Part shown: one piece after another, positions 26,675-64,000 of the stretch
Layout: every line of letters begins with the position of its first letter
How positions within the stretch are numbered: position 1 is the stretch's first letter
NCBI GenBank assembly: GCA_948468385.1
Contig: CAOKHZ010000001.1
Location: 124,001-188,000 of the forward strand
Origin: an uncultured Faecalicatena sp.
GTDB taxonomy: Bacteria; Bacillota; Clostridia; Lachnospirales; Lachnospiraceae
Reading direction: 5' to 3'
Length of the DNA: 64,000 nucleotides
Translations under genes and position numbers: made by a program
The notes under the pieces: model-generated
Told to the model about the DNA's origin: nothing
What the model saw: the letters and a program-made list of their open reading frames with translations, nothing else
Databases searched by the model: none

Positions 26675-26774
26675 ATTTGATTCGCACGCAAGGCGGTTTG
26701 GCTTGTTGCTCACAAGAATAAAGTTACATTTTACGACAACGCCGATGCGGGGATGGTAACGGAATAAAAGACTT

Positions 26775-28980: not shown

Positions 28981-29187
28981 ATGGCAAATCGTTCATCTAA
29001 CCGTGCAGCAGTGCCGGAAGCCAAGGGCGCATTGGACAGATTCAAGTATGAGGTGGCAAATGAGTTGGGAGTACCGTTGACGGATGGTTACAACGGAGAC
29101 CTGACCTCCAAGCAGAATGGTTCTGTTGGTGGTTATATGGTAAAGAAAATGATCGAACAGCAGGAGAAGCAGATGGCCGGCAAATAG
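28981..29187 (+). CDS. Alpha/beta-type small acid-soluble spore protein
   Basis: 68 residues. SASPs coat and protect DNA in dormant spores. The family pattern is clear: ALDRFKYEVANELGV in the first half, with the glutamate of the germination-protease cleavage region, and NGSVGGYMVKKMIEQQEKQ in the second. AAAGGAGG precedes the ATG. It is monocistronic, ended by the terminator at 29262. It is direct evidence that the organism sporulates. Confidence 0.95.
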   Translation: MANRSSNRAAVPEAKGALDRFKYEVANELGVPLTDGYNGDLTSKQNGSVGGYMVKKMIEQQEKQMAGK

Positions 29188-29261: not shown

Positions 29262-29296
29262 AAAAAAGCGTCAAGGATTGACCTTGGCGCTTTTTT
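29262..29296 (+). terminator. Terminator of the SASP gene
   Basis: gcgtcaagg (29268-29276) pairs with ccttggcgc (29282-29290) with one G-U pair, is preceded by an A-run and followed by six T. The descending arm also holds the -35 hexamer of the next promoter. Confidence 0.92.
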
Positions 29297-29306
29297 CTGT
29301 TAAAAT
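29278..29306 (+). promoter_or_regulatory. Sigma-A promoter inside the SASP terminator
   Basis: TTGACC (29278-29283) and TAAAAT (29301-29306) separated by exactly 17 nt. A start near 29313 would begin right at the structured RNA and lead on towards rsmD. Confidence 0.65.
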
Positions 29307-29312
29307 TTGTAT

Positions 29313-29446
29313 GTTCCCGTAGGTAGGAAGCCAAGGTCATGAATTTCCCTCTCTAGTCGCGGGGTGTCCATACCACCTCGTGCTTGCATGGCTTTGGCGA
29401 CTACCCGCGAAAGACGCATCGACCAGACGGTGCATGCATCTTTTTT
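29313..29446 (+). ncRNA. Structured RNA of unknown class upstream of rsmD
   Basis: About 134 nt between a promoter and a hairpin-plus-T6 end. A long hairpin forms from gccaaggtcatg (29330-29341) with catggctttggc (29387-29398), extended outward by ggtag/ctacc (29322-29326/29401-29405) and cgt/gcg. Inside it cgcggggtg (29358-29366) pairs with cacctcgtg (29374-29382). Several pairs are G-U in the plus strand. The terminal stem gcatcg/cggtgc (29416-29433) precedes TTTTTT at 29441-29446. I do not recognise it as SRP, 6S, RNase P, tmRNA or a common riboswitch. It could be an independent small RNA or an attenuator for rsmD-coaD, whose coding begins 69 nt downstream. Confidence 0.55.
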
Positions 29447-29514
29447 GTATTACCGGCGTTGTGATTGGCGGGAATTAAACGGTTATGAATCTTTGACTGC
29501 GAGGTGGAAAAAGC

Positions 29515-30069
29515 ATGCGTGTCATTGCCGGAAGTGCAAAACGCCTACAACTGAAAACGCCAAACGGACGCGATACCCGGCCGACGACCGACCGGATTAA
29601 GGAGACGTTGTTCAATATGCTGGCACCGAACTTGTACGATTGCACTTTTTTGGATTTGTTTGCCGGCAGCGGCGCGATTGGCATCGAGGCACTAAGCCGT
29701 GGGGCGCGCAAGGCGGTCTTCGTGGAGCATGACCCCAGAGCGGCGGCCTGCATTTATGAAAACCTGCGACACACGCATTTGGAAGAACGCGCGGAAGTGC
29801 AAAAAGGGGACGTGCTTTTTGCATTGCGGCAGCTGGAGGGAAGAGAGAAGTTCGACTTCATTTTCATGGATCCTCCTTATGGGCAGGACTTGGAAGAGAA
29901 GGTACTAAACTATTTGTCGGCCTCCACCCTTTTAAATAAGGACGCGCTCATCATTGTCGAAGCGGCACTTTCGACTTCGTTCCCATATCTGCAGGAGGAC
30001 GGCTATGTCCTTGACAAGGAAAAGAAATACAAGACGAACAAGCACGTTTTTTTGCGTCATGGCTTATAG
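29515..30069 (+). CDS. rsmD: 16S rRNA (guanine966-N2)-methyltransferase
   Basis: 184 residues. The family opening MRVIAGSAKRLQL, then TRPTTDRIKETLFNML, the SAM-binding LDLFAGSGAIGIEALSRGA and the catalytic DPPYG are all present. It methylates G966 in 16S rRNA during 30S assembly. coaD follows 42 bp downstream, the same pairing as Bacillus ylbH-coaD. The start codon has GCGAGGTGG upstream. Confidence 0.95.
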   Translation: MRVIAGSAKRLQLKTPNGRDTRPTTDRIKETLFNMLAPNLYDCTFLDLFAGSGAIGIEALSRGARKAVFVEHDPRAAACIYENLRHTHLEERAEVQKGDVLFALRQLEGREKFDFIFMDPPYGQDLEEKVLNYLSASTLLNKDALIIVEAALSTSFPYLQEDGYVLDKEKKYKTNKHVFLRHGL

Positions 30070-30111: not shown

Positions 30112-30609
30112 ATGTTAAGAGCGATATACCCGGGCAGTTTCGACCCGGTCACGTACGGACATTTAGACATCATTCGACGTTCCGCGAAACTAGTCGACCA
30201 TTTAATTGTCGGCGTATTGAATAATAATGCAAAAATGCCGTTGTTTTCTGCAAAAGAACGTGTTAAAATGTTAAAGGACGTAACCACGGCTCTGCCAAAT
30301 GTCGAAATTGCCTTGTTTGACGGCCTGCTTGTCGATTTTGCAAAGAAGATGGAAGCTAGAGTCATCATTCGCGGCCTGCGGGCGATTACGGATTTTGAGT
30401 ATGAGTTACAGATGTCCCAGACGAACCATAAGTTGGGACCAGAGTTGGAAACCATTTTTTTAACAACAAGTATCGAGTATTCATATTTGAGTTCTACCAC
30501 GGTAAAGGAGATTGCCGCTTTTGGGGGAGACGTCACGCAGTTCGTCCCTGACGAGGTAAGGAGGAAATTGGAAGTTGCATTTCAGACCCCGCCCAATCAC
30601 CTAAGCTGA
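30112..30609 (+). CDS. coaD: Pantetheine-phosphate adenylyltransferase
   Basis: 165 residues. It converts 4'-phosphopantetheine and ATP to dephospho-CoA, the penultimate step of coenzyme A synthesis. The nucleotidyltransferase motif [14 protein letters not shown] (with T-x-G-H) is at the N-terminus, [12 protein letters not shown] lies mid-protein, and the ATP-binding [11 protein letters not shown] is near the C-terminus. Operon partner of rsmD. Confidence 0.97.
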
Positions 30610-62867: not shown

Positions 62868-64000
62868 ATGAAACAAACAAAACATGATGTTGATTTGAAG
62901 GGGAGGATTGGTTACGGATTCTGTAACGCGGGCGTAAACATTGTCCAGACAATCGTGGGGTCATTTGTCACGATGTATTATACGGACAACGTGATGCTGA
63001 GCGCGGCGTTCGTAGGAAGCATGATGATGGTGGCCCGTATCCTGGACGGGGTGTCCGACTTGGCCATGGGGGCGATTGTCGACCGCACGCACACGCGTCT
63101 GGGAAAGGCAAGACCCTGGGTTTTAATCGGGGCCGTATTATTTTCATTGAGTATGTTCTTCGTATTTAACGTTCCGGCCGGAATCACCGGGACGGCGGCC
63201 AAATTGTATTGCTCCTTCATGTACGTGATGAACACCGTGATTTGCGGAACCATCGTCAACGTGTCCTGGAGCGCGTTGGCAGTAAAAATGAGCCGGAACC
63301 CGGATACCAGGGCCGGCATGGTAAGCATTGCACAGTTCTTCGCACAATTTGCCGGGCTCGTGGCAGGAAGCTACGCCATTCCAGTCATCATGGTATTCGG
63401 CGGATACGAAAAAGGATATCGCGGCATGACCATCGTTTTCGGAATCGTGGCACTTGTCAGCATGTTGCTCACGGGAATTCTCTGCAAGGAATACGAAGTG
63501 GAGGAAAAGGACGAGGCAGAGGCAAAGGCCTTGAAACCAGAAAAGAAACAAAGCGCGAAGGAATTGCTTGGCTATATGTTCCAGAACAAATATACGGTTC
63601 CGCTTATCATCGCCTTCGTGGTAAACTGGTTTGCAACAATGTTGTTTTCCTCCGCCACCATCTATTATGCGAGGGACATCATGGGAAATGGTGACTTCAT
63701 GAAGATTTTGAATAACGCGAGATCCCTTCCAGCCATGTTTTTACTGGTAATCGGTGTCGTTCCGCTCTTTGCCACAAAATTCGGGAAACGTAAAGCATTG
63801 GTATTTGCATTTATCTCTCATTTAGTATCCGGAGTCATTTTGTTCGTCGCTGGTCAAAACCTCATACTCCTTGTGCTGGGCCAAGTACTTCGAAGTGTCG
63901 GATCCGCGTTTGGAAGCACCATGCTGATGGCGATGGTATCGGATACCGCCGATTATATCAATTTGAAAAACAATATTGACATCTCGGGAATGACCAGCAG
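62868..64000 (+). CDS. GPH family sugar:cation symporter (MelB-like), 3' end beyond window
   Basis: The first 377 residues are visible. The glycoside-pentoside-hexuronide signatures are present: KGRIGYGFCNAGVN at the N-terminus, MYYTDNVM, RILDGVSDLAMGAIVDRT with the cation-site Asp residues, and RLGKARPWVLIGA. Ten or so membrane helices are visible. AAAGGAG precedes the ATG. The transported sugar cannot be told. The preceding AraC regulator is a probable controller. Confidence 0.93.
   Translation, partial: MKQTKHDVDLKGRIGYGFCNAGVNIVQTIVGSFVTMYYTDNVMLSAAFVGSMMMVARILDGVSDLAMGAIVDRTHTRLGKARPWVLIGAVLFSLSMFFVFNVPAGITGTAAKLYCSFMYVMNTVICGTIVNVSWSALAVKMSRNPDTRAGMVSIAQFFAQFAGLVAGSYAIPVIMVFGGYEKGYRGMTIVFGIVALVSMLLTGILCKEYEVEEKDEAEAKALKPEKKQSAKELLGYMFQNKYTVPLIIAFVVNWFATMLFSSATIYYARDIMGNGDFMKILNNARSLPAMFLLVIGVVPLFATKFGKRKALVFAFISHLVSGVILFVAGQNLILLVLGQVLRSVGSAFGSTMLMAMVSDTADYINLKNNIDISGMTS

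Follow-up and report, generated by a model that had tools for sequence, protein, structure and literature searches.

A structured segment in the rsmD-coaD leader of an uncultured Faecalicatena sp. resembles a diverged copy of a dispersed two-hairpin repeat of Lachnospiraceae

The segment at about positions 29313-29443 of the window, which is the whole stretch of 64,000 nucleotides that was analysed, is probably an old and diverged copy of a non-autonomous PATE-like mobile element that lies in the leader of the genes rsmD and coaD. PATE-like is used here for an element that has no terminal inverted repeats, carries a hairpin near each end and makes no target duplication, and the present family is dispersed in Lachnospiraceae. 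What the analysis demonstrates is the repeat family with its dispersal, its covarying pair of hairpins and three empty insertion sites, and the mobile-DNA explanation replaces a candidate riboregulator of CoA synthesis. The family is of more general interest than the locus: it is widespread in gut Lachnospiraceae, its insertions fall in intergenic and leader DNA, and the strong covariation of its hairpins means that it can pass for a structured RNA.

The left end of the family reads TTTATTCCCGCGAGCAACGAGCC and the right end TTT(C/G)A(C/T)T; the left hairpin begins with TTTATTCCCGCGAGCAACGAGCCAA and is closed by TTGGCGACTGCCGCGAGGG, and the right hairpin finishes with the right-end motif. The ends TTATTCCC and TTTGACT/TTTCACT are not complementary, so the element has no terminal inverted repeats. 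Most elements are 92-130 nt long and the longest one parsed is about 210 nt, which is too short to encode a transposase. Long forms, the window copy included, carry an extra block in the apex of the left hairpin, which looks by sequence as if it were a second small repeat that targeted the first. The block, CCCAGGGC..CCTCTCTTGCCGC..GCGGCAATTCACCTTGT, is seen alone in L093 (G005, C46) and nested in hairpin 1 of the long forms. Other long members (L085, L087, L094, L095, L196, L211 and L224) have an extra domain of the GTGCCGGTGGCACACGTTTAGCACCGACCGAAACGGAGTGTAGA type between the two hairpins. The short copy L025 (G008, C6:41100-42200), which sits by eye in coding DNA resembling YD repeats, has a different right hairpin, GACGAAATAGTC..GACTATTTCGTC, which starts with GAGACG, the closest match to the foot of hairpin 2 in the window.

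The common structure consists of two hairpins with 37 pairs, and 96.2% of the cells are paired in an alignment of 25 copies, which comprises 24 of the 48 listed short forms and L025; the other 24 short forms were omitted by eye, with no formal rule, as cut by the end pattern, near-duplicate or irregular. Twenty of the 37 pairs are changed on both sides, against 10.0 in shuffled alignments, and none of 500 shuffles reaches 20, the structure scored being derived from the same alignment. Slid versions of the structure give at most 10 double-sided pairs. The letters ACGA/GAC of the internal loop in the left hairpin are conserved, and the RNA folds of two short forms have z scores of -7.6 and -7.75.

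Near-copies of the segment are dispersed elsewhere in its own genome and in that of the sister species G008, where a composite query made from these near-copies finds 23 and 36 places, respectively. For wider surveys two covariance models were used, R1, built from six long forms, and R2, a two-hairpin model of the short form. Truncated copies and copies with extra domains were left out of R1 (L035/L075, L064, L065, L069, L072, L078, L079, L080, L113 and L115). At E values up to 0.01, R1 matches 21 of 61 genomes, namely every one of the 12 genus genomes, 9 of 25 from the rest of the family and none of 24 from the rest of the order. With a cutoff of E 1e-5, R2 matches at least 46 of 150 Lachnospiraceae genomes, the counts being lower bounds with one genome per genus and at most 26 candidates scored in each. 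An exact search with the 24-nt left end finds at least 119 stretches in named genomes; among the matches listed are Dorea sp. 5-2, Blautia parvula, Acetatifactor muris, Muricomes intestini and Eisenbergiella porci, together with a few MAG records that are labelled, by record label only, Muribaculaceae or Oscillospiraceae. Among the copies listed, 38 of 101 overlap a long open reading frame (at least 120 aa, called mechanically) by more than 40 nt; of 2380 random places, 2040 do so. The exact left end gave no match in viral contigs, and the short form none in plasmids.

A 141-nt query matched three genomes outside the family (G048, G049 and G053); the one such match that was read, L101, was rejected as a copy, as it holds only the palindrome of hairpin 2, and R1 matches 0 of 24 genomes outside the family. 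Four loci (L026, L027, L029 and L030) share a common stretch of 22-33 nt with the right arm and were set aside, being a different element by eye. These loci, in G008 and G001, appear to represent another dispersed element, in which CATGCTTGCATGGATTTGGCGGACTG is flanked by CAGCCAGAC..GGTCTG. Four 14-nt core strings of the family have no occurrence in the literature searched, and no description of the repeat family was found there.

Mobility of the family is indicated by empty sites. Four loci of the genome under study (L022, L067, L068 and L063) were compared with relatives, and clean empty sites were found for three of them, all in G001 (L022 in C345, L068 in C7 and L067 in C106). At L068 the full site reads CCTTTAT-element-TGCCCGG and the empty one CCTTTATTGCCCGG; at L022 the full site is CCCTTTTAT-element-TGATGCG and the empty one CCCTTTTATTGATACG; at L067 the full site is TATGTTTTAT-element-TTTTACC and the empty one TATGTTTTACTTTTACC, with one base that differs between full and empty at the left junction. 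L063 has no clean empty site in the relatives and the junctions of L022 are not clean in G008, while an all-against-all comparison of 129 copies gives clean empty sites for L022 and L068 only. The insertion point follows TTTAT at two of the three empty sites and TTTAC at the other; none of the three has a target duplication, and the ambiguity of the junctions is at most 1 nt, apart from the one base at L067. Insertion after a fixed TTTA(T/C) with neither duplication nor inverted repeats is the behaviour of IS200/IS605 elements (PMC7290912).

Among known systems, the PATEs of Haloquadratum walsbyi are the nearest in form. They are miniature elements whose movement is ascribed to IS200/IS605 transposases; they have palindromes near both ends, no terminal inverted repeats and no target duplication, are too short for a transposase, and include internal deletion forms and small repeats nested in palindromes (PMC3119063). 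The present family shares the lack of inverted repeats and of duplication, the end palindromes, the short length, the deletion forms and the nested repeats, but it is bacterial (Lachnospiraceae), no parent element of the IS605 type with matching ends was found for it, and it is set apart by strong covariation and by the conserved internal loop of its left hairpin. IS200/IS605 elements themselves are described as inserting 3' of a fixed short motif, with hairpins at the ends and without inverted repeats or duplication (PMC7290912, PMC8266576), and one PATE-like element that consists of ends only is reported from Halanaerobium (PMC7290912). The family shares the fixed-motif insertion, the hairpins at both ends and the lack of inverted repeats and of duplication; unlike IS200/IS605 elements, it has neither tnpA nor tnpB inside. 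REP and REPIN sequences with RAYT (TnpA-REP) are extragenic hairpins in high copy number whose movement is ascribed to an enzyme of the Y1 type (PMC8266576). The family likewise consists of high-copy extragenic hairpins, but its elements are 92-130 nt long with two unlike hairpins. REP sequences reportedly carry a GTAG/CGTC tag tetranucleotide at the hairpin foot, whereas the core of the family has no GTAG tag and its foot reads TTATTCCCGCGAG; in the window copy, sequence change has produced a GTAG at 29319-29322.

The window copy is recognized by models built without it. An nhmmer profile made from six long forms, with the window copy excluded, finds positions 29313-29405 in the 64-kb window with an E value of 1e-7 and 27.8 bits, while the best match in the reversed window has an E value of 2.6, and the alignment score of the copy is reached by none of 2000 shuffles. 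R1, which was built from the same six long forms, matches 29310-29413 from end to end with 25.6 bits and an E value of 3.5e-4 per 64 kb, or about 0.02 when scaled to 4.25 Mb. The copy aligns with the long forms over the full length, and in the alignment two pairs differ from the family in both partners (A.C to G.U and C-G to U-A), changes that keep or restore pairing. It has GTATGTTCCCG where the family has TTTATTCCCG, its left end is GTATGTTCCC and its right end ATGCATCTTTTTT, and the canonical ends TTTATTCCC and TTT(C/G)A(C/T)T are absent from it. R2 finds no match in the window at E values up to 10, and with its filters off it scores 10.7 bits in the window, in another register. The segment is thus matched by the profile and by R1 but missed by R2, and it therefore looks like a diverged member of the dispersed Lachnospiraceae repeat with non-canonical ends. 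A chance resemblance of an unrelated hairpin to the repeat, as the miss by R2 and the two non-canonical ends might suggest, is hardly credible given the profile E value of 1e-7, the 0 of 2000 shuffles and the finding that every one of the best places at E below 1e-3, whether in its own genome or in G008, is a family copy.

Two further places in the window resemble the family faintly. In the gap before recG, positions 26689-26722 on the minus strand (TTTATTCTTGTGAGCAACAAGCCAA) resemble the left end of the family and possibly belong to a deleted copy, with an E value of only 0.15, and an R1 match at 63440-63481, also on the minus strand, has an E value of only 2.8. L012/L102 was considered as a relative of the left half of the segment and was rejected, its 44-nt match sitting in DNA that reads as coding by eye.

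The segment follows an alpha/beta-type SASP gene (28981..29187, plus strand as are all features of the locus; PF00269, E 2e-31), whose terminator at 29262..29296 has 15-nt stem halves around ATTGA, 29262-29276 pairing with 29282-29296 as read from the sequence, and then six T; this terminator site is kept across the members of the genus whose genomes were read. A promoter at 29278..29306 consists of TTGACC (29278-29283), a 17-nt spacer and TAAAAT (29301-29306), with a TG before the -10 box (extended -10), and the scan scores it with 10 of 12 matches, in agreement with the preliminary description, which had placed a promoter of this form starting in the SASP terminator. Its -35 region occupies the loop and the 3' arm of the terminator (29262-29306), an overlap that is maintained in the genus genomes read. 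It is the sole promoter-like site of the plus strand that the scan lists upstream of rsmD, a further one being absent from 29307-29514. Downstream are rsmD (29515..30069; PF03602, E 2.1e-53) and coaD (30112..30609; PF01467, E 1.4e-27), both named from family and gene order; coaD is regarded as essential in bacteria generally.

The RNA fold of 29309-29449 has a minimum free energy of -56.6 kcal/mol, against a mean of -40.1 (sd 3.6) for shuffles, which gives a z score of -4.57, and none of 200 shuffles is equal to it. Hairpin 1 (29313..29409) corresponds, by profile, R1 and fold, to a diverged left hairpin of the long form with the block in its apical part; its fold spans 29318-29409, with a 12-bp stem GCCAAGGUCAUG/CAUGGCUUUGGC that includes two G-U pairs, outer extensions of 5 bp and 3 bp and an inner 9-bp stem. 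The apical block, at 29345..29389 with approximate limits, aligns as a diverged relative of the CCCAGGGCACCTTCTCTTGCCGC..CACCTTGTG block of the long forms. Hairpin 2 (29410..29443) runs into TTTTTT at 29441-29446 and occupies the position of the right-end hairpin of the family with a different sequence; it may be homologous to that hairpin by position. Both the long hairpin and the terminator-like end of a hairpin followed by six T, which the preliminary description had drawn by eye, are present in the fold. Folded as DNA, the same segment has a z score of -2.25, with 6 of 200 shuffles as good, and the minus strand gives -1.74. The longer leader 29309-29530 has a z score of -1.89, with 11 of 200 shuffles as good.

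TTGACC-N17-TAAAAT with the -35 box in the SASP terminator is found in the nine genus genomes parsed, the one under study included, and by eye in a tenth, G005; the parsed set leaves out G009, and no SASP-rsmD locus was located in G001. Behind the promoter the leaders vary in length and sequence. The hairpin is absent from the rsmD leader in all 10 relatives whose locus was found, G001 being the eleventh, and R1 at E values up to 10 has no match in the SASP-rsmD loci of these 10. At the place of the hairpin the sister species G008 has TTTGTTCCCGCGAAAGTTGACGGG and keeps only TTCCCGCGAAAG; TTCCCG and CGAAAG, short pieces that flank hairpin 1 in the window, are retained there, and the G008 sequence may be a remnant left by deletion between CCCG repeats. 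Because it is conserved here in genus members without the hairpin, the promoter is that of rsmD. This does not support an RNA gene driven by a promoter of its own, one of two proposals made earlier. The other proposal, taken as a conserved attenuator leader, is not supported either: the hairpin is absent in 10 of 10 relatives, and the segment resembles a dispersed mobile repeat. Absence of conservation had been named beforehand as ending the claim, and by this criterion the claim of a conserved RNA fails; the structured segment is not a conserved leader.

In the preferred explanation, that of a diverged mobile element, the element would be cut and joined as single-stranded DNA by a transposase of the IS200/IS605 type (Y1, HUH) acting in trans, which would recognize the two hairpins and insert the element after TTTAT. 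The window copy would have entered in an ancestor common to its own species and the sister species G008, would now be immobile through loss of the canonical target and right end, and would be passively transcribed at the head of the rsmD-coaD mRNA, where hairpin 2 and its six T would act as a leaky terminator at most.

A co-opted leader or attenuator, the main rival, seems unlikely. On this reading, a repeat that was once mobile would fold within the rsmD-coaD mRNA as it is made, and hairpin 2 with its T6 would terminate some of the transcripts, whether or not a signal is involved. The segment does sit directly behind the sole plus-strand promoter-like site upstream of rsmD, its RNA fold is strong (z -4.57) and a T6 follows hairpin 2. 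In a simulation of neutral decay, in which the same number of changes was placed on a family copy, the simulations average -17.3 kcal/mol and the window arms have -31.0, and an equally good fold arises in only 1.5% of 5000 transition-biased simulations and 0.07% of 3000 uniform ones; by energy, the copy folds better than most of the simulated decay. By pair number, however, 15% of the simulations match the window arms, which is not unusual. The copy may have been under selection, either while its subfamily was mobile or after insertion, and one copy cannot tell these apart. Against co-option, there is no orthologue in 10 relatives, and hairpin 2 with its T is weak and mismatched (-12.8 kcal/mol), is missing from the minimum-energy structure of the longer leader 29309-29530, and is not listed by a simple terminator scan. 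A strong terminator would silence the operon because no other promoter-like site precedes rsmD (29307-29514), and harm would follow if coaD, farther downstream, is essential.

Rather improbable is a wider version, in which a large undescribed family of two-hairpin miniature elements has hairpins that are also active as RNA, and one copy has been captured as the rsmD-coaD leader, where hairpin 1 and the T6 hairpin would set the read-through into a gene of CoA synthesis; more boldly, the RNA of the family might serve a TnpB-like protein in trans. That the whole family is an RNA-level mobile element or a carrier of guide RNA, for example a compact omega-like RNA for a TnpB-like protein in trans, with hairpins selected as RNA beyond their role as transposase-binding DNA, is very unlikely. 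The very strong covariation, the conserved internal-loop letters ACGA/GAC and the folds of the two short forms speak for it, as does the target motif of the family that adjoins the left end, IS200/IS605 elements having transposon-adjacent motifs next to their left end. Clean insertion at a fixed motif without duplication is, on the other hand, a DNA hallmark of IS200/IS605, neither long nor short forms of the repeat have an Rfam match, and no partner protein was identified at the Y1_Tnp places scanned.

That the segment is an independent small RNA of about 134 nt is highly improbable. Its promoter, structure and T-run do stand in series, but the promoter is kept upstream of rsmD in hairpin-free genomes, the segment has no orthologue, and the Rfam search is negative. 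With Rfam 15 there is no match at the gathering score in the 64-kb window; between 29240 and 29530, at E values up to 10, there are 17 sub-threshold matches, all of which start in or beside the SASP terminator and none of which extends beyond 29337. Eight family loci likewise give no match at the gathering threshold, and in a search of eight loci at E values up to 1 there is none either. On these negative results for the window and the family loci, known RNA classes were ruled out for the segment, and the impression by eye that it belongs to no known class held in the covariance check, which matched no family.

A mobiliser for the diverged element and its relatives was sought among Y1_Tnp genes, which are found in 8 of the 12 genus genomes and in 9 of 10 other genomes rich in the family; G000 has no Y1_Tnp match. 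Around the 54 scanned of 65 Y1_Tnp places there is no tnpA between family ends, and an autonomous partner was not found. The IS200 copies seen in the genus have left and right ends unlike those of the family; copies in G007 have, near one end, a 26-nt palindrome identical to one in hairpin 2 of the family, their ends being otherwise different. If a transposase that acts in trans is found, the family would be a natural test case in gut Clostridia, both for the single-strand transposition of miniature elements and for how such elements turn into leaders or terminators. In Blautia parvula, a complete family copy (L282) adjoins a decayed fragment of a Y1 transposase, which is a lead to the mobiliser.
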